From the NCBI GenBank assembly GCA_028722305.1, contig JAQYHB010000039.1, forward strand, positions 1 through 64,000: 64,000 nucleotides of DNA, read 5' to 3'. The notes under the pieces are model-generated. The model worked only from the letters and a program-made list of their open reading frames with translations. It was not told where the DNA came from and did no database searches. Position numbers and translations under genes: made by a program. Of the stretch, positions 2,336 to 35,772 are shown piece after piece. Each line of letters starts with the position of its first letter. Position 1 is the stretch's first letter. This DNA is from Spirochaetales bacterium (GTDB lineage Bacteria; Spirochaetota; Spirochaetia; Sphaerochaetales; Sphaerochaetaceae).

Positions 2336-3043
2336 TTATTTCATATACTTATGTATCAAAGCTTTTATTGTTTCCTGTGCGCTATGTTCTCCGGAAAGCG
2401 CTATAAGCTTGTTGTAGTCCTCAATTTCATTTCCAGTAAAAATCAAAGATATAACTTTTTCAGGCTTTCCTGCAACATGATCATAGTTTTCCGGGTGCGC
2501 CCAAAAACAACGCATACAAAAGCTAACATCTTTTTTATTCCAGTTCACACAATGCTCACACGTCCACGACTTTGCACGATTCGCCGACGGGCTTAATAAC
2601 ATATAATAGTCAATGTCACTTTCATCATGTTCACCGCCTATTTCATAAGGTACACGATGATCAACTTGTAGGACAGACGGGTCCATAGTTTCCAAATAAA
2701 TAAAACATTTTGGCCCATATTTATCAATAAGTGCCTGTTTTAAGGCCTGTGATAAAACGGTACGTCCGGCAGACTTTGCAATAGTATTAACGTCTTGAGG
2801 GTCGCCAAACTTATAGGCGGCTATTTTTCTCCCATCTTCACCCGTTACGCGATACGTAACTATTGGTATACCCAACTCCCTAACATCACGCACAGCACGT
2901 GGCGGATGATTATAACCATAGGTGTCCATCAATTCTTCTGACGTTATATAGCCGTGTTTTAAGATATGTTGTATAACCGTTTTGGGACGTTTAGCAGTGA
3001 CAGAATTTAATAAATCAAGAAATTCTTTTGGATATTCATTCAT
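2336..3043 (-). CDS. HNH endonuclease, probable type II restriction enzyme
   Basis: A 235-residue protein. The N-terminus (about 1-60) looks like a winged-helix module ('VIQHILKHGYITSEELMDTY'). A nuclease core around 125-160 contains 'LQVDHRVPYEIGGEHDESDI', an HNH-like DH followed by 'LSPSANRAKSW'. A four-Cys zinc ribbon follows ('CEHC...CMRC', about residues 161-179). Its start overlaps the end of the upstream methyltransferase gene by 4 bp, so the two are translationally coupled. The pairing with a D12 methyltransferase and an XRE regulator suggests the restriction half of a type II system. The recognition site is unknown. Confidence 0.75.
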   Translation of the reverse strand: MNEYPKEFLDLLNSVTAKRPKTVIQHILKHGYITSEELMDTYGYNHPPRAVRDVRELGIPIVTYRVTGEDGRKIAAYKFGDPQDVNTIAKSAGRTVLSQALKQALIDKYGPKCFIYLETMDPSVLQVDHRVPYEIGGEHDESDIDYYMLLSPSANRAKSWTCEHCVNWNKKDVSFCMRCFWAHPENYDHVAGKPEKVISLIFTGNEIEDYNKLIALSGEHSAQETIKALIHKYMK

Positions 3044-3951
3044 ATTGCTTCACCCCTAAACATTGTCATTTGTTCAGGCATTGGCCTAAAAAAGGGAATA
3101 AGTTCTTTGCTAATATAAAGTGCTTCAAATGTAGTTGATTTTTTTCCTAATAGTAAGGCCTGACTTGACAAGCCTGCATTAAGCATTACTTTCTTGCATC
3201 CTAAACTTTCAGGTAAATCTTCTCCGTATTCTTTGCCGCCACATTCTCCATCATAGCTGACAATATAATCTATTCCCTTATCATTTAGGATTTGTAAGGC
3301 ATCTGCAAATTCATCAAATGGTACTCCAGAAAAATATCTATTGTCCCTTACATTCGTAACACCTTGATATGGCGGATCCATGTATACTAAGTCACCGGGT
3401 TCAACTAATTCAAATACTTTTTTATAATCCAAAGCAGAAAATTCAGTTTTTCCTTTTAACAAACTCGAAATAGCATAAACATTCTTTTCAAGATTTTTTG
3501 GGTTCGTTCCATGCCTACGTTTATCAGGTGACTGATTAAATTTTCCGTCGATACCATAACGAACAGCGCCCTTTACACACCTTGCAATCAAATAAAGTAT
3601 GTTAGCAGGGGTTCTTTCACCTGCATTAAATCGTTCGCGCACTATATAAAAATGCTTTACGTGATCATCACTAAAATCAAATTGTTCGTTCCAAATTCTT
3701 GAATATTCTTCAATCAATTGTTGTGGATTGTTAATTGCTTCTTCAAGCATTTTTACAAGAGGTTCATTCAAGTCGTTTATGTAATATCTATCAGCTCTAT
3801 TTTCATACGCGACAGCAACAGAAATTGCAGCCATCCCGGAAAAAGGTTCCACAAGCCGTTTGATATGTTTAGGCATATATTGTAATATTTGCGGGGCTAA
3901 TTTTCGTTTTGACCCTTGATATTGTACGATAGTTGGTATCGTTCCGTTCAT
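3040..3951 (-). CDS. DNA adenine-N6 methyltransferase, D12 class
   Basis: 303 residues, full length for the Dam/D12 family. The AdoMet-binding motif is near the N-terminus ('YQGSKRKLAPQILQYMP', then 'EPFSGMAAISVA'), 'YINDLNEPL' follows, and the catalytic DPPY motif is at about residue 193 ('GDLVYMDPPYQGVTNVRDNR'). These features define alpha-class adenine-N6 methyltransferases. The gene overlaps the nuclease gene downstream and the XRE gene upstream by 4 bp each, forming a compact three-gene operon on the minus strand. It probably protects host DNA from the HNH enzyme. The DNA is clearly AT-richer than the flanking chromosome, suggesting transfer. Confidence 0.88.
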   Translation of the reverse strand: MNGTIPTIVQYQGSKRKLAPQILQYMPKHIKRLVEPFSGMAAISVAVAYENRADRYYINDLNEPLVKMLEEAINNPQQLIEEYSRIWNEQFDFSDDHVKHFYIVRERFNAGERTPANILYLIARCVKGAVRYGIDGKFNQSPDKRRHGTNPKNLEKNVYAISSLLKGKTEFSALDYKKVFELVEPGDLVYMDPPYQGVTNVRDNRYFSGVPFDEFADALQILNDKGIDYIVSYDGECGGKEYGEDLPESLGCKKVMLNAGLSSQALLLGKKSTTFEALYISKELIPFFRPMPEQMTMFRGEAI

Positions 3952-4175
3952 TTTACATCAACCTCACTTTTCTTAATAGGACTGATTTCCACTATATCAT
4001 CAAGCATACAGTCAAGCGCGACACAAATCTTTGCTAAACTGTCCATTGAAACAGGTTCGTTTTTTCCCATTTTGGCAAGAACATTCGTGCTGATTCCTGT
4101 CTGCTTGCGCATTTCTGTTTTCGTCATGCCTTTATCAATTAGCATCTTCCACAAACGATTATAATTATATTTCAT
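3948..4175 (-). CDS. XRE-family helix-turn-helix regulator of the RM operon
   Basis: 75 residues, nearly all one Cro/CI-type HTH domain: 'LIDKGMTKTEMRKQTGISTN' then 'MDSLAKICVALDCMLDDIVE'. It is first in the operon with the methyltransferase and nuclease genes and overlaps the next start by 4 bp. By position it could act as a controller protein that times nuclease expression, though small XRE proteins of this type are also common in phages. No clear operator palindrome is visible in the 130 bp upstream (4176-4305). Confidence 0.75.
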   Translation of the reverse strand: MKYNYNRLWKMLIDKGMTKTEMRKQTGISTNVLAKMGKNEPVSMDSLAKICVALDCMLDDIVEISPIKKSEVDVK

Positions 4176-4305
4176 GCGCTTGCCCCTTTTATTAAAAGAA
4201 ATCCATTGAACAGTATGGCATAATCAGGCAGAGAATGAAATAATATATCACGTTTTCGTGATAACAGGGCAGCCATTTCTCGCGCTTGTGAATTCGTTGT
4301 AATGC

Positions 4306-5120
4306 TCAATAGCTGTCAGGCAGCGCCGCAGTTCCGTCAATGCGCTGTTTCGAGCTTTGGTTCTTGACCAGAACAATATTTCCGTTGCGGTCCGTCTGAA
4401 CATCGGTATTCGTCAGACACCATTTCAGGACAGGGTTATTGTTATAAATGACACGGTGCGCTTGCAGGTCCGCGCCTAACATCTGCATAGGCAGGGAAAG
4501 CGTCTTTACGCCCTGAATACACCGCACCATGTTGAAACCTTCCATCTGCATTTTTTCCCCGAAATAGCGGGCGGAATAGCTGTTATAATAACCCCACGTC
4601 GGGAACAGGCTGTATTCCTGAACAAGCTCCTTGAACCATGCTGTCACATTGGAATAATTGATCGTGTTTCCGGTGCAAAGGCGCACAAGGCCACGTTCAA
4701 GCCATCGGTCATAGGGAATTTTGTCCTGCTTCACGCGCTCTTGCAGGCAGTCCGCGGGCAGCCAAAACATTTCAGTCAAATATTTTTTGCTGTCACCCGG
4801 TTTCATGAATAGCAGGCTTGCAGCTGTCAGGTCCGTTGTGATAGGCAGATCAACCCCGCCGATATAGTACGCACCTCGAAAATCATCAAGCGAAAAGACA
4901 GATTCATTGTTTATATCATCAAAGGATAACCACGCCGTTTTCATGGTTTCCCTGACGTTGAATTCCATGCAGAGTACACCCGGCAGTTCATTCCGGTTTG
5001 CTTTGCCCGTTCAACCTGCGCGTTCAGATTGTCGAATTTCTTGATTGTGTTCAGAGCCGGGTTTGCTTTCATCCACGCTGCCGGGTCTGTCCATTCCGCG
5101 CGGCTGTCCAGTTCGTACAG
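4306..5120 (-). pseudogene. Phage terminase large subunit, truncated and frameshifted
   Basis: The 3' part (4306-4968) encodes the RNase H-like nuclease domain of an HK97-type large terminase ('CMEFNVRETMKTAWLSFDDI', 'GGVDLPITTDLTAASLLF', 'GVKTLSLPMQMLGADLQ'). The upstream piece (to about 5120) is in another frame ('YELDSRAEWTDPAAWMKANP', 'ALNTIKKFDNLNAQVERAKQ'). A frameshift near 5000 separates them. The ATPase half is missing, replaced at about 5127 by an IS3-family element. It is a relic of a prophage; no other structural phage gene remains nearby. Confidence 0.8.
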
Positions 5121-5127
5121 AATGGGG

Positions 5128-5955
5128 GTGCAGACAAAAACTTGGACCAAATACTAGGTTCATGGGATTGCCATGTATTCAAAAACACAAATGCTCAAGG
5201 CTGTACAGCTTTACATACGATATGGATGCAGTGCAGCCGCCACCATCAGGGAGCTAGGTTATTCCGACAGACATCTGATCAGGAAATGGGAATACAAGGA
5301 GACGGACGCATCAAGGAGAGGGTCCGTCCGAGATTCAGTACCTCAAAGTACTCGATGGCGCAGATGGAAACCGCTGCCGATTTCTCTGTCCGCCACGGCA
5401 GGAACCTCAACAGGACCATAGAGGCCCTTGAATATCCTTCAAGACCGGAACCCCCTTTCATTGTGGGTGACAGCGCTTGCCCCGGGGAAGAAGCGCGTTT
5501 GCATGGCCGGCCAGGCAAGGATAGAATATCCCCCGCAAGTAAAGGAAGCGGCAGTAATTGGTTTCTACTCCAAGGCTGGTTCTGCCGAGGAGGTGGCCAG
5601 GCGGCATGGGGTGCTCCCTTTACTTCTGGAAGAATCAGATATCCGGAGAGGATTACGAGGTGCCGAAGGACCAGTATACGCAGAGGACATCGGTTCTCTG
5701 AGGCGTGAGGCAGATGAACTCCGAAGGAAAGTCAGACATCTGCGCCTGGAGAAGGAGGTCCTCGAGAAGGCCGCAGAAATAGTAAAAAAAGGAAAGGGCA
5801 TCAGTCCTGACACCCTGACAAACAGGGAAAAGGCAATGGTGACTGATGCCCTCTGAGGCAAACACCCGTTGAAGGATTTGCTTGCCGTCATGGACATGGC
5901 CCAGAGCAGCTACTGCTACCAGAGGCTTGCAATGAGGCATGACAAGTACTCCGAG
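5128..5955 (+). mobile_element. IS3-family element remnant (orfA and start of orfB)
   Basis: The left end begins near TGCAGACAAAAACTTGGAC, an IS3-like terminus, inserted in the terminase relic. OrfA starts at 5173 ('MYSKTQMLKAVQLYIRYGCS', 'AATIRELGYSDRHLIRKW') and is broken by frameshifts. It continues as 'SVRHGRNLNRTIEALEYPSR', then as 'IEYPPQVKEAAVIGFYSKAG' and a coiled 'LRREADELRRKVRHLRLEKE' leucine-zipper segment ending at 5856. A short orfB start follows ('KHPLKDLLAVMDMAQSSYCY'). The element stops abruptly at about 5955, where unrelated coding sequence begins, so the right end and the DDE domain are deleted. Confidence 0.75.
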
Positions 5956-6231
5956 AATCTCATTTTTCTCCCTCCTCTTCGGGTGCATAAAGAAGATATC
6001 CCGCTCCTGATAAAAGCCAAGATCAAGGGAAGCAAGCCAATCTCTCCACATTTTCTGCAGAGGCTTTACGATTATGATTGGCCGGGAAACGTTCGAGAAC
6101 TCGAAACGATCTTGAGGAAAGCAGAGCAATTTAGTCGGGAAAAGGACCTGTTGGATTTTCCGGATGGACCGCTCGACCCGAGAAAAGGATGCCCTTGGCC
6201 CATGCACAGGTTATACACATCTAACATATAA
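5956..6231 (+). pseudogene. Sigma-54 activator fragment fused to IS3 orfB remnant
   Basis: In frame with the orfB remnant, the sequence switches at about 5956 to 'NLIFLPPLRVHKEDIPLLIK', then 'KPISPHFLQRLYDYDWPGNV' and 'RELETILRKAEQF'. This is the sensor-II/GNVRELE end of the AAA+ domain of NtrC-type sigma-54 activators. The GAFTGA loop, Walker motifs and DNA-binding HTH are missing. The chimeric frame most likely arose when a deletion joined the IS3 remnant to the tail of a resident activator gene. It is not expected to be functional. Confidence 0.7.
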
Positions 6232-6569
6232 CCCCAAAACAATGTGAGAAGTCTCCGATAACCTCATAAAGGAACATTCCATCGAGAGTTACCATGTACA
6301 AAGTTCGTGCACAATCCGGTGGATAACTTGTGGATAACTTTCATGATCTAGGTCCTTTTCCATCGGTTTTCCCGAGGAAAAGGACATTTTCTTTACCCGA
6401 AAAACATCCTTTCCAACACCTGTTAAGTTGTTTTTCAACTTGTTATATAACAATGAATTAATAATGAATGCATTTTCATCCAAATTTGAGTTGGCAGCTT
6501 TCCAAAGGACGTGACTTCCTCTGTATCCACAACGATTTCACCAACCGGTGGATAACTTGTGGATAACTT
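6211..6569 (+). repeat. DnaA-box cluster with long direct repeat
   Basis: This intergenic DNA carries a perfect TTATACACA (6211-6219) and two copies of a 25-bp direct repeat (6316-6340 and 6545-6569). Each copy holds two minus-strand boxes: GGTGGATAA (6318-6326, 6547-6555) and perfect TGTGGATAA (6329-6337, 6558-6566). A near box GTATCCACA is at 6523-6531. An AT-rich stretch with A/T runs (6422-6490) lies between the repeats. The spacing of paired boxes and the AT-rich block resemble an origin or DnaA-titration locus. It lies about 22 kb from dnaA. No gene is visible between 6232 and 6618. Confidence 0.75.
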
Positions 6570-6618
6570 GCGTACAGGCTGGGTGTACGAGAAAAGGAAA
6601 TATACTTCTCGTCAATAG

Positions 6619-7908
6619 TTATGACTGAACGGTAATGTCGAGACCAAGGGCGAAAAGTTTCTGCTGAAAATGCTCGTAGCCACGTTCAATCTGATAGATA
6701 TTGTCGATGACAGTTGTTCCTTGGGCGCAAACCCCGGCAATCACCAGCGCCATGCCGGCGCGGACGTCAGGAGACGAGACATGCGCTCCCACCAGAGGAC
6801 TTGGACCGGAAACAACCGCTCGATGAGGATCACAGAGGATGATGTCGGCACCCATACGAATCAGCCAATCAATGAAATACATGCGAGATTCGAACATCTT
6901 CTCGTGGACCAGAATGACGCCATGCATCTGGGTCGCACAGACGGTGAGGACAGACAGGAGGTCTGCGGGGAATCCTGGCCATGGAGCGTCATCAATCTTC
7001 GCAGTGTGCCCGCCGACCTCTTTCTGCAAAATACGGGATTGGGTCCGTGGGACCAGAATCGAAGAAGGGCCGTCTTGTACGAAGTCGATGCCGATACGCT
7101 GGAAGCCAAGTCGGATCATCCTGAGTTTGGAAACATCCACCCGCTTCAGGAGAATCTCTCCTCCACTGGCACCGGCAAGGCCAATGAAGGAACCCGCTTC
7201 CATATAATCGAACCCAAGACGGAAATCAGTTCCATGCAATCGCTTTTGTCCCTCTACCGTGAGCACGTTGCTGCCGATACCGCTAATCTTGCAACCCATG
7301 CCACAAAGCATGGTACAAAGATCCTCGACATGTGGCTCGCTTGCCGCATTGCGGATGATTGTAGTTCCCTCGGCGAGACTGGCTGCCATGATGATATTCT
7401 CGGTACCGGTGACGGACGCCTCGTCGAGGAAAATGTCGTTTCCGACCAGATGCCCTTTCTTCGAGGAGAACTGGATGTTTCCGTCCATGGTAAACTCACA
7501 CTTGGCACCTAGCTCGCTGAAACCAAGGAAATGGGTATCCAGACGACGAAGGCCGATAACGTCACCGCCAGGAGGGGGAAGCACAGCCGACCCGTTCATG
7601 GCCAGCAGCGCGCCCGCAAACAGGATGGACCCCCTCACTTTCCCCACCAAGTCCGCGTCGAGCTTTCCTTCACGATTCCCGCTCTGGATTACGTAGACTC
7701 CAGCGCCTTCACGGATAATCGAGCTTCCCAGCGAAGCCAGTAGCTTCAGCATGACCTTCACATCCTCGATTTCCGGGACATTGGAAAGGCGTACCGCGTC
7801 ATCCGTCAGGAGGGTCGCGACGATACAGGGAAGCGCGGCGTTCTTGTTTCCACTGATTGCCACTTCCCCACAAGCAGGATGACCACCATTGATGATGTAG
7901 GAACCCAT
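6619..7908 (-). CDS. murA: UDP-N-acetylglucosamine 1-carboxyvinyltransferase
   Basis: 429 residues, the usual MurA length. It transfers enolpyruvate from PEP to UDP-GlcNAc, the first committed step of peptidoglycan synthesis. The start at 7908 is chosen because GGAGGG precedes it and the protein then begins 'MGSYIINGGHPACGEVAISG' with the family's 'NKNAALP' at 21-27; the longer frame overlaps the divergent gene. The active-site loop reads 'PPPGGDVIGLRRLDTH': the catalytic Cys (Cys115 in E. coli) is Asp116, codon 7561-7563. Natural Cys-to-Asp MurA enzymes are known to be fosfomycin-insensitive. It lies between the DnaA-box cluster and the divergent kinase gene. Confidence 0.93.
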   Translation of the reverse strand: MGSYIINGGHPACGEVAISGNKNAALPCIVATLLTDDAVRLSNVPEIEDVKVMLKLLASLGSSIIREGAGVYVIQSGNREGKLDADLVGKVRGSILFAGALLAMNGSAVLPPPGGDVIGLRRLDTHFLGFSELGAKCEFTMDGNIQFSSKKGHLVGNDIFLDEASVTGTENIIMAASLAEGTTIIRNAASEPHVEDLCTMLCGMGCKISGIGSNVLTVEGQKRLHGTDFRLGFDYMEAGSFIGLAGASGGEILLKRVDVSKLRMIRLGFQRIGIDFVQDGPSSILVPRTQSRILQKEVGGHTAKIDDAPWPGFPADLLSVLTVCATQMHGVILVHEKMFESRMYFIDWLIRMGADIILCDPHRAVVSGPSPLVGAHVSSPDVRAGMALVIAGVCAQGTTVIDNIYQIERGYEHFQQKLFALGLDITVQS

Positions 7909-7991
7909 GAGCCCTCCACCCCAAACTCTACCGCACCATCCCCTATCGGGCAAGAAGCGGACAATGCAGATTCCTCCCCCGCGCCAACTTG

Positions 7992-8020
7992 TTGCCCCTC
8001 TCACCGAAAGGGTGTAGGAT
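7992..8020 (+). promoter_or_regulatory. Promoter of adenosine-kinase-like gene (leaderless)
   Basis: -35 TTGCCC (7992-7997), 17-bp spacer, -10 TAGGAT (8015-8020). The GTG start at 8027 lies 6 nt after the -10 box, where transcription should begin, and no Shine-Dalgarno sequence is present. This predicts a leaderless mRNA. Confidence 0.5.
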
Positions 8021-8026
8021 ATCGCC

Positions 8027-9043
8027 GTGAAAAACGAAGCGAATCCTCGTGTATATGGTATTGGCAATCCTTTGATGGACATCATCGTCAGCGCGAAGGA
8101 CCAGGAACTCATCCAGCTTGGAGTCAACAAGGGCACCATGACGCTGACGGACGCCCATCGTCACGAGCAACTGTTGGAATTCGCTTCCAAGAGAAATCCC
8201 TCGTATTCGGCCGGTGGCTCGTGTCCCAACACGATCGCGACCTTGGCAGCCATGGGAATCGACGCGACCTTGGCGGGAAAAATCGGCTTTGACCAGCAGG
8301 GAGACATATACTCCACTCTGATGGAGCAGAAACGCGTGCGCAACGAATTGGTCCGCAGCATCGACCAACATACCGGCGCAAGTGTCATCCTTGTCACGGA
8401 GGATTCCGAGCGAAGCATGAACACTTACCTTGGAGCCAATCGGCAATACTCCCAGGAAGACGTCAACGACGAATCAGTCATCCAAGCGGATTTCTTCCAT
8501 TTCACCGGCTACATGTGGGACACGGAAAGCCAGAAGCAAGCCATCAAGCACACTCTCTCCTTAGCGAAAAAATCACATACCGCGGTTTCGTTCGACATCG
8601 CCGATCCGATGGCCGTAGAACGGTATCATGACGATTTTATCGAACTGATCCGCTCCAACTGTGACATCGTTTATGCAAACAGGGAAGAAGCACACATTCT
8701 TTTCGGGAATGAGGATCCCGTGGAAAATTGCAAGCAACTGGGCAAACTTTGTCCCACCGCTATCGTCAAGAACGGGAAAAAAGGGTCCTACATCTGCCAT
8801 AACGGACAACTGCTGATTATTCCGGTCAAGGGATCCGTCCATCCTGTGGACACCACGGGAGCGGGCGACACGTATGCCTCCGGTTATCTGTATGGCCTCT
8901 GTACCCATCACTCGATTGCCGAAAGCGGCATGATCGCGTCGTTCCTCGCAGGAGAAATCATCAGTCAGTGGGGAGCGCAATTCTCCCCAGAGCGCGCCCG
9001 CTTTTTGAGACACATGCTGGAAACAGGTTCCTGGAGTCTCTAA
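8027..9043 (+). CDS. PfkB-family kinase, adenosine-kinase-like
   Basis: 338 residues. N-terminal 'VYGIGNPLMDIIV' and 'YSAGGSCPNTIATLAAMG' form the PfkB substrate-binding region. The C-terminal signature 'VDTTGAGDTYASGYLYG' (about 278-294) carries the anion hole and catalytic Asp. The 'NxxMD' and 'SAGGSxxNT' forms fit the adenosine kinase branch better than sugar kinases, though substrate cannot be fixed by sequence alone. The GTG start is supported by the position of 'GIGNPLMD' 11 residues in. There is no ribosome-binding site; the promoter position suggests leaderless translation. The gene diverges from murA with about 118 bp between starts. Confidence 0.8.
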   Translation: MKNEANPRVYGIGNPLMDIIVSAKDQELIQLGVNKGTMTLTDAHRHEQLLEFASKRNPSYSAGGSCPNTIATLAAMGIDATLAGKIGFDQQGDIYSTLMEQKRVRNELVRSIDQHTGASVILVTEDSERSMNTYLGANRQYSQEDVNDESVIQADFFHFTGYMWDTESQKQAIKHTLSLAKKSHTAVSFDIADPMAVERYHDDFIELIRSNCDIVYANREEAHILFGNEDPVENCKQLGKLCPTAIVKNGKKGSYICHNGQLLIIPVKGSVHPVDTTGAGDTYASGYLYGLCTHHSIAESGMIASFLAGEIISQWGAQFSPERARFLRHMLETGSWSL

Positions 9044-26056: not shown

Positions 26057-27140
26057 GCGGCTTCAGTTCTCCTTCATTCACATCATACACCATCGCGTCA
26101 TGACCTTGCAGTGTGTCGAAATACTGCTCTTCCGGAAGGAATGTATAAAATGCCTGGTCGTAGTCATCGATGACTTTGAGAAAACGAGCCCTCTTCTCGT
26201 AATCCAGCTCCAAAAGAACGTCATCCAACAAAATCAGCGGTTTTCTGCCGGTCTTCTGTTTGAAAAAACGCATCTGGGCGACACGAAACAATAAAGATGC
26301 AAGTCTGATCTGACCCGTGGAACCTACATCCACCAACAGTTTTCCATCAACCTTCACGAGAAAACGATCACGATGCACGCCGCTTGTCGTGGTCTGCATG
26401 ATCTTGTCCCGTTCAAATCCAGACGCAAGATACTGGATTATCTGATTCTCACTCTCGCAATCTTTCCAGGAAGGAGCGTAGTTGATAGTCACGTTCCAGT
26501 CGCTTCCGCTTACTTGCTTGTAGAGAGATGGAAATATTTTGTTGAACTCGTCGACCGCATCTGATCGGGCTTTCTGAATCGACAACCCATATGCAGCCAG
26601 CTGCATATCATACAGGGAAAGCAAATCGTATTTTTCATCCTTGATAGCCTGATTGCGCTGTTTTACCAGCATTTTATATCTTCTTAGGTTATCCAAGAAC
26701 ATCGAATCATACATACTCATTGTCTGGTCGAAGAAACGTCTCCGGTCCTCGGGATCACCGTTGACAAAGGTAATATCGGCATGGCTGAAGACAATACAGG
26801 GAATGGTATAGATTAGTTGTTTTCGGTCTGTCAGGGTCTTTCCGTCAAGCTGGATGGTCCTCTTGCCTTGTCTGAACAGCAGGGAAATCTCATGGGAAAG
26901 GTTCTGCTCGTCGGTGAACATTCCCTTCAACTTGAAAGACGTCTCTCCGATACGTGCCAAATCATGGAAATCCTGGGTACGAAACGAGGATCCATAACAA
27001 AGGACGTAGAGCGCCTCGAGAAAATTGGTCTTTCCTTGTCCGTTTTCTCCAACAAGCAATACCTGCCGACATCCGACAGGTATTGTAGAGGTAGCTAGAT
27101 TTCTAAATTGAGAGGTCTGAATGGAAATGAATCGCATCAC
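26043..27140 (-). CDS. recF: DNA replication and repair protein RecF
   Basis: 365 residues, standard length. Walker A 'GENGQGKTNFLEALYVL' is at about 31-47, the signature-like region is 'DVGSTGQIRLASLLFRVAQM', and Walker B is 'PLILLDDVLLELD'. RecF helps load RecA at gapped DNA. The start overlaps the dnaN stop by 4 bp, continuing the dnaA-dnaN-recF-DUF721 order typical of origins. Confidence 0.95.
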   Translation of the reverse strand: MMRFISIQTSQFRNLATSTIPVGCRQVLLVGENGQGKTNFLEALYVLCYGSSFRTQDFHDLARIGETSFKLKGMFTDEQNLSHEISLLFRQGKRTIQLDGKTLTDRKQLIYTIPCIVFSHADITFVNGDPEDRRRFFDQTMSMYDSMFLDNLRRYKMLVKQRNQAIKDEKYDLLSLYDMQLAAYGLSIQKARSDAVDEFNKIFPSLYKQVSGSDWNVTINYAPSWKDCESENQIIQYLASGFERDKIMQTTTSGVHRDRFLVKVDGKLLVDVGSTGQIRLASLLFRVAQMRFFKQKTGRKPLILLDDVLLELDYEKRARFLKVIDDYDQAFYTFLPEEQYFDTLQGHDAMVYDVNEGELKPHEEA

Positions 27141-28249
27141 ACACCGGGTTGCATCGGCATGATGAGATGGAAGTAGTCATGCTCACCTTCCGGGCACAGC
27201 GTGACAGGATGGAGAGGATCAGTGAAATTGAACGTGAACGTTTCCCCCTCCATTACCTTCAGAGGACTTACCAGATAGTTGTAGTTGAGACAAATCGTGG
27301 TCGTCTCCCCATCATATTGGCAGTCCAGTGTCTCTTTCGCGTCTCCAATCTCGTTTCCCTCGCTGAACAGCGTCATCTGGTTGGGGGCGATTTCCAGATA
27401 GATTTTGCAGACCTTGCTGTCAATGGAGACGGCGACGCGTTTGATCGCGTCGATTGTCTCCTTGATTTTCAGGGTGCAATGATGGGTCTGCTGCTGGGGA
27501 ATGACCCGCCGATAATCAGGGAACGTGCTCTTGATCAACGTAGTGTAGAAGAACCTTTTCGCGACTTTCGCGAAGATGACATGGTCCTTGATGCAAAGAT
27601 CCATCACACCGTCGCCAGGAGCCAGTTTCTTCAGCTCGTTGAAGAACTTGACTGGGATAATGACCGGTTTGAAATCAGGAATATTCTCGGAAAACTTTCG
27701 TTCGACTAAGGAAAGTCTGCGGCTGTCGGTGGCGACCATGTTCATGCCGACAGAACTTTTTTCCAAATAGAGGCCGCAAAGGAATTGCCTGGTTTCGTCA
27801 GTGCCAACCGAGAAAGAGGTTTGGTCAGACATTGAGATGAAGGCTTTTTGACCAATTGTGAAGAATGAGTCGGCATCCGTACTTTCCAGTTCGGGAAAGT
27901 CGGAAGCATCCATTACCTTCAACGTCGAGTTGAATTTGACGGTTGAGTCTTCGGGAGTGATTTTCAGGACGTTCTCTTTCTGAGCGAAGAGAATCGTGGT
28001 GTTTGGAAGCAAGCGGAGCGTGTCGAGAAACTTCTCGCCGAAAACGATGGTGCATCCCTCCTCGACAGTCTGGACAGGAATCTGGGTGGTGAAGCCACTT
28101 GCTGTGTCGGTAGAACGGATGGTCAGGATGTCGTCTTTTGTCTCTAGGTAGATGTTGCTCAGGATGGAGAGGGAGTTTTTTTGTTGGGTAAAGTCCATCG
28201 CGTAGGAGATTTCATTTAGGATATCTTCCTGTTTGCAATAAAATTTCAT
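27137..28249 (-). CDS. dnaN: DNA polymerase III beta subunit (sliding clamp)
   Basis: 370 residues in three similar beta-clamp domains. It starts 'MKFYCKQEDILNEISYAMDF' after a GAGGA ribosome site and ends 'YFHLIMPMQPGV', a typical clamp C-terminus ('MPM'). It tethers the polymerase to DNA. The gene is separated from dnaA by 240 bp holding DnaA boxes, so it probably has its own promoter. Confidence 0.96.
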   Translation of the reverse strand: MKFYCKQEDILNEISYAMDFTQQKNSLSILSNIYLETKDDILTIRSTDTASGFTTQIPVQTVEEGCTIVFGEKFLDTLRLLPNTTILFAQKENVLKITPEDSTVKFNSTLKVMDASDFPELESTDADSFFTIGQKAFISMSDQTSFSVGTDETRQFLCGLYLEKSSVGMNMVATDSRRLSLVERKFSENIPDFKPVIIPVKFFNELKKLAPGDGVMDLCIKDHVIFAKVAKRFFYTTLIKSTFPDYRRVIPQQQTHHCTLKIKETIDAIKRVAVSIDSKVCKIYLEIAPNQMTLFSEGNEIGDAKETLDCQYDGETTTICLNYNYLVSPLKVMEGETFTFNFTDPLHPVTLCPEGEHDYFHLIMPMQPGV

Positions 28250-28489
28250 GGTCGTAATCCTCTTTTTTGTTTCTTCTTAATAAAGAATATATAGGTAAAT
28301 CTCTCGTAATCATAGTAATAGTAGCACAAAAAACGGTGGATAATTCATTAACTTGTTTCTAGAGCGTTGTTTGTGAAAGCGTAATCTGGTGGATTGTAGA
28401 GTGGATTTCCCATGGTTGTCCACAATTTGCGCACGGCTGAAACCAGTTATCCACCCGAATCCACCGGTTATCCAGAGGTTATCCACCTG
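28250..28489. other. oriC: Probable chromosomal origin (oriC), dnaN-dnaA spacer
   Basis: 240 bp with five DnaA-box-like 9-mers: GGTGGATAA (28335-28343), TTGTCCACA (28416-28424), TTATCCACC (28447-28455), TTATCCAGA (28468-28476) and TTATCCACC (28479-28487). An AT-rich stretch at 28256-28330 next to dnaN could be the unwinding element. Gene direction flips from minus to plus just beyond dnaA, as expected at an origin. The boxes here are mostly one base from the TTATCCACA consensus. Confidence 0.75.
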
Positions 28490-29878
28490 TTACGCGCTGG
28501 CCTGTATCTCCTTTTTCATTTTTTCTATGACCGCCTTGAGTTCCGGATCCACGCTGCAGGTGGAGGAGATGCGGTCGCACGCATGCATTACCGTGGTATG
28601 GTCCCGATTGCCGAACTCTGCCCCTATTTCGGTAAATGAGAAGTTGGTCAGTTGCTTTGCCAGGAACATGGCAATCTGTCTGGGTTGGGTAAGCGACTTG
28701 TTCTTTTTCTTACCTTTCAAGTCACTTACGTTGACATTGAAATAGTTGCAGACCACTTTGATGATCGTCTGGATGTTGAGCCCTGCTTCCTTTCCCTTCG
28801 ACTGCATGAAGGGCATGGGGGCGAGCAGGTCTCGGGCTTTATCCAAGGTAAGTTCCACATTGAGTAGCTCGCTGTAGGAAATCAATTTTGTAAGAGAAGC
28901 TTCCAAGTCACGAACGTTCGACTGTACGTTCTCCGCGACATATCGAATGATATCCTCACCGACCATTTTTCCCTGCAATCTGCACTTGTTTTGGAGAATA
29001 GCGACCCTCGTTTCATATGCGGGCGGTTGGAGATCAGCGTTCAATCCGCGCTCGAACCGGCTGGTGAGACGATCGAAGACACCTTTCAATTCATTGAGGG
29101 GTCTATCACAGGTAAATACCATCTGCTTCTTCGATTCGTACAGTTCATTGAAGGTATGGAAGAGTTCCTCTTGGGATTGGGTCTTGTTTTGGATGAACTG
29201 GATATCGTCCATGAGCAGGACATCGACCTTTCGGAACTTGTTCTTGAATTGTTGTTGTTTTTCGATGCCCATACCGATGGAGGAGATGAACTCGTTGGCA
29301 AAAGCCTCAGCGGTGATGTAGAGCACTTTCAACTCAGGCTGATGCGCCATGACGTAGTTTCCGATGGCGTTGATCAGATGGGTTTTGCCCAGACCGACGC
29401 CGCCGTAAATCAGACAAGGGTTATAGCTACGTCCCGGGTTCTTCGCGATTGCGAGCGAAGCGTTGAAGGCATAGGCGCTATTGTCGCCCATGATGAATTT
29501 ATCAAAGGTGTAGTCGGAATTGACGCCGGAGGCCTCGCGCTGGATTTCTCGGGACTTGGTATGGGAAATGTCTTGGACTGACTTGATCGCCGATGTCCGG
29601 GCCGATTCCCCGCCGGCGTTCGGGCTCATGTTCTTGTTGATGGCGATTTGAACATGCACCTCCGTCGTCGAGTATCTGCTGACGTAGCTCTCGATGGTGG
29701 GGATGAATTTCTTGACCTTGTCGAATACGAACTGGCTGGAAACCTCAAGATTGAGGATTCCTTCCTCCGAACTGACATATCCTATTTTACTCGCGAAAGG
29801 AGCGAACTCCCTGGTTTCTTCTCCGGAGCGAAGCTCTTCCTTGCATTGCTTCCAAATTTCTTGATAATCATGGTCCAT
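28490..29878 (-). CDS. dnaA: Chromosomal replication initiator DnaA
   Basis: 462 residues with the four usual domains. Domain I is at the N-terminus, followed by a variable linker to about 115. The AAA+ domain has Walker A 'GGVGLGKTHL' at 159-168 and Walker B 'VLLMDDIQFI'. The C-terminal DNA-binding domain has 'LKGKKKNKSLTQPRQIAMFL' and the signature 'FGNRDHTTVMHACDRI'. It opens the origin. It is transcribed away from gyrB toward dnaN. Confidence 0.98.
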   Translation of the reverse strand: MDHDYQEIWKQCKEELRSGEETREFAPFASKIGYVSSEEGILNLEVSSQFVFDKVKKFIPTIESYVSRYSTTEVHVQIAINKNMSPNAGGESARTSAIKSVQDISHTKSREIQREASGVNSDYTFDKFIMGDNSAYAFNASLAIAKNPGRSYNPCLIYGGVGLGKTHLINAIGNYVMAHQPELKVLYITAEAFANEFISSIGMGIEKQQQFKNKFRKVDVLLMDDIQFIQNKTQSQEELFHTFNELYESKKQMVFTCDRPLNELKGVFDRLTSRFERGLNADLQPPAYETRVAILQNKCRLQGKMVGEDIIRYVAENVQSNVRDLEASLTKLISYSELLNVELTLDKARDLLAPMPFMQSKGKEAGLNIQTIIKVVCNYFNVNVSDLKGKKKNKSLTQPRQIAMFLAKQLTNFSFTEIGAEFGNRDHTTVMHACDRISSTCSVDPELKAVIEKMKKEIQASA

Positions 29879-30183
29879 AGGTTCCCCATTTTATCCTTCT
29901 CTTCTATGAGTATGCAAGCAAATGCCTATTCTTGTAACCTTCTCCTTCCCGTACTGTTCTTGAAGTAGCCAGTCAAGGAATTTCTCTCCGAAAAAAGGGC
30001 CTTCCCGCCCTCTTTTCCCTCATGATTTTTTTGTTTCGGGAACAAGGAAAATAATTTCTCTTTAACTTTTTGTAGGATAAATACATAAAAAAGGCTTAAA
30101 CGCTTGAAAACAAAGCCAGTTTTTTGGTATGATTCTCGTGCATTTACACAACGCATTTTTTATGACTCTCAAGGAAATAAAAC
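29879..30183. other. dnaA-gyrB divergent intergenic region
   Basis: 305 bp with no supported gene. It contains the gyrB promoter (30104-30133) and, on the other strand, must hold the dnaA promoter, for which I see no strong match. No DnaA boxes are seen here. Confidence 0.6.
30104..30133 (+). promoter_or_regulatory. gyrB promoter
   Basis: -35 TTGAAA (30104-30109), 18-bp spacer, -10 TATGAT (30128-30133), giving a leader of about 45 nt before the gyrB ATG, which has AAGGAAAT upstream. Confidence 0.55.
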
Positions 30184-32277
30184 ATGAACGAACAGAATGA
30201 AAACGACGAGCAGTTTGCCCCGACAAACCAGCAGGACAAATCTGTCATCCAGAAGGCGGAAAGTGCGTACAATTCGGGAACGATCAAGGTTCTCAAAGGT
30301 CTTGAGGCGGTACGTCTGAGACCTGGCATGTACATCGGCTCTACCGGAATCTCCGGCCTGCATCAACTGGTGTACGAGGTCGTCGACAACTCCATCGACG
30401 AGGCCATGGCAGGTTTCTGTAACGACATTACGGTCTGTCTTGACCTGGACGAGCAGGGCCGCCAGCGTTGCACAGTGGAAGATAATGGTCGCGGCATTCC
30501 TGTCGACATGCATCCGACCGAGCACAAGAGCACGCTTGAGGTCGTTCTCTCCCAGCTGCACGCTGGAGGCAAGTTCGACAAGAACGCCTACAAGGTCTCA
30601 GGTGGACTGCATGGTGTTGGCGTATCCTGTGTCGTAGCCCTTTCCGATTGGTTCGAGGCGAGGGTATATCGTCTCGCCGGCGGGTATCCGACCGAGGATG
30701 CGAAGCACCCTGGCGGCGTTTTCTCCCAGCGCTACAGCAAGGGCATTCCTCTTGGTGATGTTGTGCGTGAAGGAGATTCCGACCGCTCCGGCACTGTCAT
30801 CAGCTTTGTTCCCGACTTCTCCATCATGGAGCCGAATGCGTTTGACTATAATGTGCTCTCCAGCCGTTTCCGCGAGCTCTCTTATCTGAACAAGGGCGTG
30901 CAGATCACCATCATCGACCGCCGTTCTTCACTGGAGAAAAAAGAGGTGTTCAAGAGCGAGGGGGGAATCCCTGAGTTCGTCAGCCACCTGAACCAGTATC
31001 AAGAGCCTTTGTTCGACACCCCGATTTCCATCGAGGGAGAGAAAGAAGGCACGAAGGTTGAGATTTCCCTGCAATACAACAAGAAGTACGACGTGAAAAT
31101 CCTTTCCTTCGTCAACAACATCAACACCCATGAGGGTGGTACTCACCTCACCGGCTTCCATATGGGCCTTACCCGTGTCGTCAACAACCAGATGAGCAAG
31201 AACGACAAGCTGATGAAGAAGTACGATATCTCCAAGGAAGAGAACAAGTTCGAAGCCAGCGATATCGACGAGGGCCTGACAGCGGTCGTTTCCGTGAAGG
31301 TTCCGAATCCTCAGTTCGAGGGCCAGACGAAGATGAAACTGGGAAACAGCTATGTCACCGGGCTGGTCAGCAGCCTGGTCTACGAGAAGCTGAACAATTA
31401 CCTCGACGAGTTCCCCGATATCTCCAACGCGATCCTGATGAAAATCATCGGGGCCGCTCTCGGACGTGTCGCCGCCCGCAAGGCGCGTGAGCGTATCCGC
31501 AGCGAGAACGGTGGTGGCGGACTTCCTGGCAAACTGGCCGATTGTTCCGAGAAAGATCCGGCAAAATGCGAGATTTTCATCGTCGAGGGCGATTCCGCTG
31601 GTGGATCCGCCAAACAGGGGCGCGACCGCCATTTCCAGGCGATTCTTCCGCTCTGGGGAAAGATGCTGAACGTCGAGAAGGCACCCGAGTTCAGGGTCCT
31701 TGGCAACGACAAGCTGCAGCCGGTCATCTCTTCCATCGGAGCTGGCCTTACCCGTTACAACAACACGACGAGCGATTTCGGCGACAACCTGAAGGACGCC
31801 AGCCACAACTTCGATATCTCCAAGTGCCGGTACCACAAGATCATCATCATGGCGGATGCCGATGTCGATGGAAGCCACATCAGAACCCTGCTGTTGACCT
31901 TCTTCTTCAGGTACATGAGACCGTTGATTGAGGCGGGGTATGTCTATTTCGCCATGCCTCCTCTCTACAAGATCACAATCGGCAAGCGGATTGAATACGC
32001 CTATGACGAGGATGCCCGTACCGCAATCCTGAACAAGTATGGGGTGACTGATTCTAGCAAGGTCGAGATCCAGCGTTACAAAGGTCTTGGCGAGATGAAC
32101 CCCGAGCAGCTTTGGGAGACCACCATGAACCCGGAAACCCGTCGTATGGGACAGGTCAGCCTGACGGACGCCGAGGAAGCCGATCGCAACTTCTCCATGC
32201 TGATGGGTGAGGAAGTCGAGCCGAGACGCGAATTCATCGAGCAGAACGCCGAATACGTGACCAACTTGGATGCATAA
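30184..32277 (+). CDS. gyrB: DNA gyrase subunit B
   Basis: 697 residues. The GHKL ATPase motifs are present: 'YEVVDNSIDEAMAGF', 'VEDNGRGIPV', 'VSGGLHGVGVS'. The TOPRIM domain shows 'EGDSAGGSAKQGRDRHFQ' and 'MADADVDGSHIRTLLLTFF'. The C-terminal 'RYKGLGEMNPEQLWETTMNP' is typical. There is an N-terminal extension of about 30 acidic/polar residues before the ATPase core. gyrA follows 13 bp downstream, so the two subunits are co-expressed. Confidence 0.97.
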   Translation: MNEQNENDEQFAPTNQQDKSVIQKAESAYNSGTIKVLKGLEAVRLRPGMYIGSTGISGLHQLVYEVVDNSIDEAMAGFCNDITVCLDLDEQGRQRCTVEDNGRGIPVDMHPTEHKSTLEVVLSQLHAGGKFDKNAYKVSGGLHGVGVSCVVALSDWFEARVYRLAGGYPTEDAKHPGGVFSQRYSKGIPLGDVVREGDSDRSGTVISFVPDFSIMEPNAFDYNVLSSRFRELSYLNKGVQITIIDRRSSLEKKEVFKSEGGIPEFVSHLNQYQEPLFDTPISIEGEKEGTKVEISLQYNKKYDVKILSFVNNINTHEGGTHLTGFHMGLTRVVNNQMSKNDKLMKKYDISKEENKFEASDIDEGLTAVVSVKVPNPQFEGQTKMKLGNSYVTGLVSSLVYEKLNNYLDEFPDISNAILMKIIGAALGRVAARKARERIRSENGGGGLPGKLADCSEKDPAKCEIFIVEGDSAGGSAKQGRDRHFQAILPLWGKMLNVEKAPEFRVLGNDKLQPVISSIGAGLTRYNNTTSDFGDNLKDASHNFDISKCRYHKIIIMADADVDGSHIRTLLLTFFFRYMRPLIEAGYVYFAMPPLYKITIGKRIEYAYDEDARTAILNKYGVTDSSKVEIQRYKGLGEMNPEQLWETTMNPETRRMGQVSLTDAEEADRNFSMLMGEEVEPRREFIEQNAEYVTNLDA

Positions 32278-34946: not shown

Positions 34947-35559
34947 ATTTGTTTTTCTGCTTCACCTCTCTGCCGTTTTTGTTGGTTCCTATGTGTTGGC
35001 GTGTACCAAAGCAGACGGCAATGATTCTTTCTTCTCTTTTCCCATCAAAGGATGTCCTGCAGAGACCTATGAATTGAGAAATAATAGTAATTACTTATAT
35101 AATAACAAGTTAGAATTTTCAGTAAATTCCATAGCTACTCGGTTTGCCTTAAAACGAGACCGCTTTACCAGAAGCTGTTGTTCTTCACAAAAGAGAAACG
35201 AAAGAAAAAGAATCCCCACACGAATCTGTCCTTATATATAGTAACAAAAGGGTAAAAACCTGCAACTAACGTAAAATTTTGCGGATTTTTCGGATGAGGA
35301 ATAATCCCAAAAATCGAACCAACCATTTCAGCAAAAGTGCAAACGAAAGTGTTTTTTGGCTCTCTATAGATTTGAGGGATCATCGGGAACACAGGGGTCC
35401 TGGATATGGTTAATGGGTGTCGCCGTCCGTGGTACCTTTGCATGAGCTGGAGCGATGACAGGATCTACGGACCGACAGACTCCAGAGTAACGACACATCC
35501 TGGAATCTCAGGAAGCTTTTCTTCTCCAAGTTTCCTCTGATAAATTCCAATTCTGTTTT

Positions 35560-35659: not shown

Positions 35660-35675
35660 TGTTTCACGTGAAACA
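35660..35675. other. parS: parS site 1
   Basis: TGTTTCACGTGAAACA, a perfect 16-bp palindrome identical to the canonical bacterial parS consensus. It is the ParB nucleation site and lies 435 bp upstream of parA. Confidence 0.93.
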
Positions 35676-35744: not shown

Positions 35745-35772
35745 GCGTTTCACGTGAAACACAGTGAAACGC
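35745..35772 (-). terminator. parS: nfu terminator containing parS site 2
   Basis: The 16-mer CGTTTCACGTGAAACA (35746-35761) holds the perfect parS core GTTTCACGTGAAAC. On the minus strand the arms GCGTTTCAC (35764-35772) and GTGAAACGC (35745-35753) make a 9-bp stem followed by TCTTTTTTATT, a good intrinsic terminator 14 bp after the nfu stop. One DNA segment therefore serves both as a ParB site and as a terminator arm. Confidence 0.85.

Follow-up and report, generated by a model that had tools for sequence, protein, structure and literature searches.

What is a cluster of DnaA boxes doing beside murA, 22 kb from dnaA, and is it an origin, a part of one, or a site that acts on DnaA? The window, meaning the whole stretch of DNA analysed, runs from the start of an 88-kb contig to position 64 kb, in a draft genome of 2.71 Mb whose MurA and DnaA relatives assign it to the Spirochaetia, beside Sphaerochaeta-type bacteria. 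The cluster holds the perfect DnaA box TTATNCACA at 6211-6219 (+), 6329-6337 (-), and 6558-6566 (-), together with boxes carrying one mismatch at 6318-6326 (-), 6547-6555 (-), and 6523-6531 (+), the last of which reads GTATCCACA. A 25-bp repeat (CCGGTGGATAACTTGTGGATAACTT) is found exactly at 6316-6340 and 6545-6569, with an offset of 229 bp, and the GC content between the copies falls to 29% at 6400-6499, so that the box content, the repeats, and the AT-rich DNA between them are as originally predicted. The repeats contain the minus-strand box pair TTATCCACAAGTTATCCACC, whose boxes start 11 bp apart, as a murA-proximal pair (6547..6566) and a distal pair 229 bp from it (6318..6337). About 100 bp past the distal pair lies a single inverted box, TTATACACA (6211..6219, +), which has a counterpart, equally placed and oriented, in other members of the genus and in genera of the Sphaerochaeta type.

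Chance cannot explain the cluster. The exact box TTATNCACA occurs 19 times in the 2.71-Mb genome, and 3 of these 19 occurrences fall within 359 bp here, where 0.0025 would be expected, corresponding to a Poisson P of ~2.7e-9 for a given 359-bp stretch and of roughly 2e-5 once every stretch of that length is taken into account. The tandem pair TTATCCACAAGTTATCCAC is exact at just two genome sites, both in the cluster, and the next-best match in the genome, with 1 mismatch, is the dnaA-dnaN spacer. The 64-kb window as a whole shows no excess of boxes (27 seen versus 32 expected with at most one mismatch), and the signal is the clustering of the boxes, not their number across the window.

The cluster lies between two convergent gene ends. 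On one side, the 3' end of murA (6619..8139, minus strand; TIGR01072, E=5e-137, supported by relatives) faces the boxes, which places them downstream of murA and not upstream, as the original prediction had it. On the other side is the 3' fragment of a sigma-54 activator (5869..6231, plus strand; AAA_lid_14 and NtrC/NifA-type matches), which is truncated by a mobile island and whose open reading frame (ORF) overlaps the inverted box. The island (2336-5856) adjoins the cluster and carries a Dam-family adenine methylase gene (3040-3951) and apparent transposase remnants. The true start of murA is probably near codon 76, since relatives have earlier stops and the ORF is overlapped there by a divergent gene; the ~75 codons before it (7915-8139) are probably noncoding and resemble part of that gene. 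Further along the window are dnaN (27137-28249, minus), dnaA (28490-29878, minus), and gyrB (30184-32277, plus). Neither a promoter nor a terminator was found within the window's module, as we call the arrangement of boxes described below, and an RNA gene between the boxes was considered and rejected, there being no Rfam match within it.

In relatives whose MurA is 53 to 95% identical, the boxes occur again shortly downstream of murA, at almost constant distances from it; the rest of the intergenic sequence around them can scarcely be aligned. We defined a twin module as two same-strand box pairs, with starts 11 bp apart within each pair and 170 to 260 bp between the pairs. Such a module is found downstream of murA in 20 of 47 genomes, against 0.02 expected from shuffled sequences, and upstream of dnaA in 11 of 58 genomes, against 0.01 expected, these representing 11 other families; within-pair spacings other than 11 bp give far fewer twin matches. 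Across 79 named loci, the module lies 0 to 5 kb downstream of murA in 46 (327 kb scanned), with one orientation in 43 of the 46, whereas the remaining 911 kb of these loci contain 3 matches.

A profile built from 46 sequences, the window copy among them (profile R1), matches the whole module on the murA strand at 6310..6574 (minus, E=1.6e-26 in the window), which is the single strong match in this genome (E=7e-25). Loci held out of the profile score too, down to E = 2e-33, and most relatives are matched in the genome search. Weak or no profile matches were obtained for genomes G044, G047, G048, and G054, and no twin was found in Brucepastera (locus L049) or at several Treponema loci. Conservation in relatives, which the original prediction had proposed as its own test, is strong. 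The same layout is common to much of the class Spirochaetia, at murA and sometimes at the origin.

The conserved module consists of a box pair with 11-bp spacing, an AT-rich palindrome of ~25 bp, and a second box pair, arranged in spacing steps of ~10.5 bp. The palindrome is visible in the alignment of 46 modules (consensus TAAnTnnTTnTAnTAnAAnnAATTA) and reads CAACTTGTTATATAACAATGAATTA on the plus strand at 6436..6460 of the window, where it was located by the alignment, a motif table, and a genome scan with 2 mismatches. A weight matrix derived from murA-side modules recovers it in 11 of 11 dnaA-upstream modules, none of which was used in building the matrix (Stouffer z = 13.4). The distances from the first pair to the palindrome cluster at ~58, 67, 76, 88, and 98 bp, and those from the palindrome to the second pair at ~93, 104, 115, 124, and 134 bp, with few between, in a test that controlled relatedness only in part, its weak redundancy filter having kept 60 of 62 modules. 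These clusters follow the helical repeat, suggesting that the sites would lie on the same face of the DNA. The central palindrome, the phased spacing, and the second location upstream of dnaA were all absent from the original prediction.

A central integration host factor (IHF) site was considered and rejected, since the palindrome TAAnTnnTTnTAnTAnAAnnAATTA, compared by eye, does not fit the IHF consensus WATCARNNNNTTR; one HU/IHF-family gene is present. The palindrome pattern is 5- to 14-fold commoner than its reversed control, itself an imperfect control, in the window's family (this genome, G004, G023, G024, and G033), and shows no such enrichment in G058. Several of the sites are inside ORFs, and no pattern of neighbours indicating a palindrome regulon was seen. 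Within the window, a lone palindrome-like site with 2 mismatches and without DnaA boxes (30063..30087) is found in the dnaA-gyrB gap, which is where the whole module sits in other families. Another palindrome like the central one, with 1 mismatch, is found in the gap after gyrA (35088-35112), among the least stable stretches of the window.

The genes around the module vary, which indicates that it is the element, and not its surroundings, that has been conserved. Gene content was annotated in three loci (L053, L059, and L101), and there the module lies 2.5 to 4 kb from murA; in L059, lptF/lptG-type genes are found between murA and the module, and a small winged helix-turn-helix (wHTH) gene followed by pspA is found beyond it. 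In L043 the module is adjoined by a wHTH gene and a sigma-54 activator gene, the latter lying intact beyond the module, and in G024 it is adjoined by a GGDEF gene. A full MurA match is missing in G007, G008, G009, G011, G013, G014, G017, G020, G025, G026, G028, G030, G032, and G035; these are small-genome members of the same family and may have lost murein synthesis. In genomes without a full MurA match the module is still found 7 to 48 kb from dnaA, on the dnaA strand (6.9 kb in G009, 10.7 kb in G032, 11.5 kb in G025, and 48 kb in G014), with weaker matches in G017 and G035. The distance to dnaA amounts to ~1 to 4% of the genome, being 22 kb of 2.7 Mb in this genome, 95 kb of 5 Mb in G041, 146 kb of 4.65 Mb in G060, and 48 kb of 1.2 Mb in G014. 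At least five genomes (G040, G041, G045, G053, and G060) carry both a dnaA-upstream and a murA-side copy, the latter lying 2.5 to 4 kb further on, behind lptF/G-type genes. A relocation with mutual exclusion, in which the module would be found at murA or at dnaA and never at both, was rejected on the strength of these genomes. In G023 a further copy lies next to a parS site in the gap after gyrA (L289), the counterpart of the gap that holds the one-mismatch palindrome in the window.

The position of the origin bears directly on the function of the cluster. Computed on genome stretches of 88 to 400 kb, the minimum of the cumulative GC skew is at dnaA-recF in six of six genomes checked, lying 2 to 6 kb downstream of the dnaA start in G000, G001, G023, and G024 and at dnaA in G060 and G043. 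The modules are found at +16 to +146 kb from dnaA on the rising skew curve, and no skew change was seen at the module in G060, G023, G024, G001, or G000. The dnaA-dnaN spacer (28250..28489, minus), the presumed oriC core with the skew minimum nearby, contains five one-mismatch boxes and no perfect one, in line with the imperfect boxes noted there originally. A DnaA-trio-like run, TACTATTACTATGATTAC (28306..28323, minus), follows the box TTATCCACC (28335-28343) after 11 bp, and nearly all genomes have DnaA-trios in this spacer, in runs of 4 to 7 and mostly 10 to 13 bp after a box. The module contains no DnaA-trio; the longest TAN run is 2 in the window copy and at most 3 in 44 of 46 modules. 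The skew minima at dnaA-recF and the trios in the dnaA-dnaN spacer place unwinding elsewhere than at the module, and a true oriC at murA was rejected on both grounds.

This genus uses boxes ending in TTATCCACC at the cluster and at the spacer alike, and the dnaA-dnaN spacer of several relatives includes perfect boxes, so that the observation of better boxes here than at oriC is true of this genome, not in general, and is a local quirk. The densest array seen is in the dnaA-dnaN spacer of Pleomorphochaeta (L042:1685-1969), with 15 DnaA-like boxes, 5 of them perfect. Two parS-like palindromes, at 35660-35675 (TGTTTCACGTGAAACA) and 35746-35761 (CGTTTCACGTGAAACA), are found ~6 kb past dnaA on the gyrA side of the window, as is expected for an origin region.

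The cluster is probably a control site for the time of chromosome copying rather than an origin. The explanation we favour, and to which we would give an even chance, is that it represents a non-oriC copy of a conserved Spirochaetia DnaA-assembly module, which would function as a sink or switch for DnaA in the manner of datA or of the DnaA-box clusters (DBCs) of Bacillus subtilis. What the sequences show is the architecture, its conservation and phasing, its single occurrence in this genome, its independence of adjacent genes, and a position away from the skew-defined origin; DnaA binding, a protein at the centre, looping, and the sign of the effect are inferred. DnaA would load on both box pairs, and a bending or dimeric protein at the palindrome would fold the DNA and join the pairs into one DnaA complex, a folded complex being suggested by the same-face box pairs that flank a symmetric site. 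At a distance from oriC of no more than a few per cent of the chromosome, the module would be doubled soon after initiation, and the doubled module would then titrate or inactivate DnaA, stopping re-initiation. The datA- or DBC-like role is favoured because the module is origin-proximal and survives the loss of murA and the exchange of neighbours, and because no Hda was found above the family cut-off, so that another check on DnaA would be needed. Counting against it, the identical layout upstream of dnaA in other families would suit a part of the origin just as well, the palindrome departs from the IHF consensus, and some relatives have no twin or give weak or no profile matches.

The original prediction had also considered a part of a bipartite origin, and we keep this reading as the main rival because the same module is found upstream of dnaA in other families. 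It is possible, rather than probable, that the cluster is an upstream half of a bipartite oriC that has become detached and loops from 7 to 48 kb away to the DnaA-trio site between dnaA and dnaN. The module and its palindrome upstream of dnaA in 11 other families, which together with the dnaA-dnaN spacer look like a bipartite origin there, are consistent with this, as are the lack of a dnaA-upstream twin in all 20 genomes with a murA-adjacent module, the empty dnaA-gyrB gap in the window's family, and the retention of the module on the dnaA strand in that family even without murA. However, the genomes with both copies indicate that the murA-side copy is more than an origin half that has changed place, and the halves of known bipartite origins are just ~1 to 2 kb apart. 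A wider form of this idea has a class-wide phase-locked module located both at oriC and at another fixed site; in one family it would be missing from dnaA and act on the origin over 7 to 48 kb, giving a split bipartite origin whose halves communicate through a palindrome-binding protein. This form seems to us somewhat doubtful.

A second, independent origin, the remaining origin reading of the original prediction, is very improbable. The DnaA boxes do flank an AT-rich, easily melted stretch, at the 99.75th percentile of duplex instability in the window, but equally unstable stretches are found elsewhere in the window, and the module offers neither the skew minimum nor the order of box then DnaA-trios that such an origin would have. 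The module might instead recharge ADP-DnaA to ATP-DnaA, since it is conserved, intergenic, and rich in DnaA boxes and may, like DARS2, have a site for a bending protein; this is unlikely, as the module is origin-proximal wherever this could be measured and no DARS core layout was seen in it. The frequent presence of a psp-type regulator or a wHTH gene next to the module would fit a DnaA-controlled transcription site for a neighbour such as the sigma-54/psp locus, murA, or the GGDEF gene, which we consider quite unlikely, since the module is usually found at gene 3' ends, is flanked by different genes from genus to genus, persists where murA has been lost, and showed no promoter-like site.

Control loci for DnaA outside the origin are known from Escherichia coli, B. 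subtilis, and Streptomyces, with a layout that differs from one to the next, and the cluster belongs to a kind of locus that is already known. What is new, as far as the sequences indicate, is the fixed architecture across many families, in which a palindrome occupies the centre and the spacings follow the helix, and the occurrence of a twin at dnaA in other families; in the papers searched, which do not cover all the literature, no description of such an element in spirochaetes was found. One layout is kept across many families, has an architecture in common with the dnaA-upstream region of others, and survives the loss or exchange of its neighbours. It provides a sequence definition and a candidate partner protein, the palindrome binder, and genomes with one, two, or no copies offer natural comparisons for DnaA titration outside the model bacteria.

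Compared with known systems, the module resembles DARS1 and DARS2 of E. coli in being a noncoding DnaA-box locus, DARS2 also using bending proteins, and differs from them in box number, layout, and chromosomal position, DARS1 and DARS2 being located at 17.5 and 64 min, far from oriC. The upstream half of a bipartite origin (incA/incB of B. subtilis, oriC1 of Helicobacter pylori) is resembled by the module upstream of dnaA in 11 families, which is likewise without the trio-bearing unwinding site found in dnaA-dnaN. In B. subtilis and H. pylori, both halves are needed in vivo but only one is unwound in vitro (PMC6669920). In contrast, there are no DnaA boxes upstream of dnaA in this genome, the window's family has no module at dnaA and a copy 22 kb away, and several other genomes have both. 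The extra-origin clusters of B. subtilis are described as holding back initiation, which is advanced by their joint removal (Okumura 2012, as cited in PMC5295017). The module is similarly an intergenic box cluster outside and near oriC, but B. subtilis has at least six such clusters, whereas here each genome has a single strong copy, whose internal architecture is fixed. At datA, function depends on the presence of boxes 2 and 3 and the IHF site and on the spacings between them (PMC4585315). The module differs from datA in consisting of two tandem 11-bp pairs ~170 to 248 bp apart around an AT palindrome, in having between its boxes a palindrome (TAAnTnnTTnTAnTAnAAnnAATTA) that does not match the IHF consensus where datA has an IHF site, and in being found also at dnaA in other families. 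It resembles datA in being a noncoding, intergenic, origin-proximal DnaA-box locus, near oriC and outside it (22 kb from dnaA here and 7 to 48 kb in the family), with boxes that flank a central protein site, predicted in the case of the module, and with a spacing that at datA is known to matter (PMC4585315, PMC10950094).
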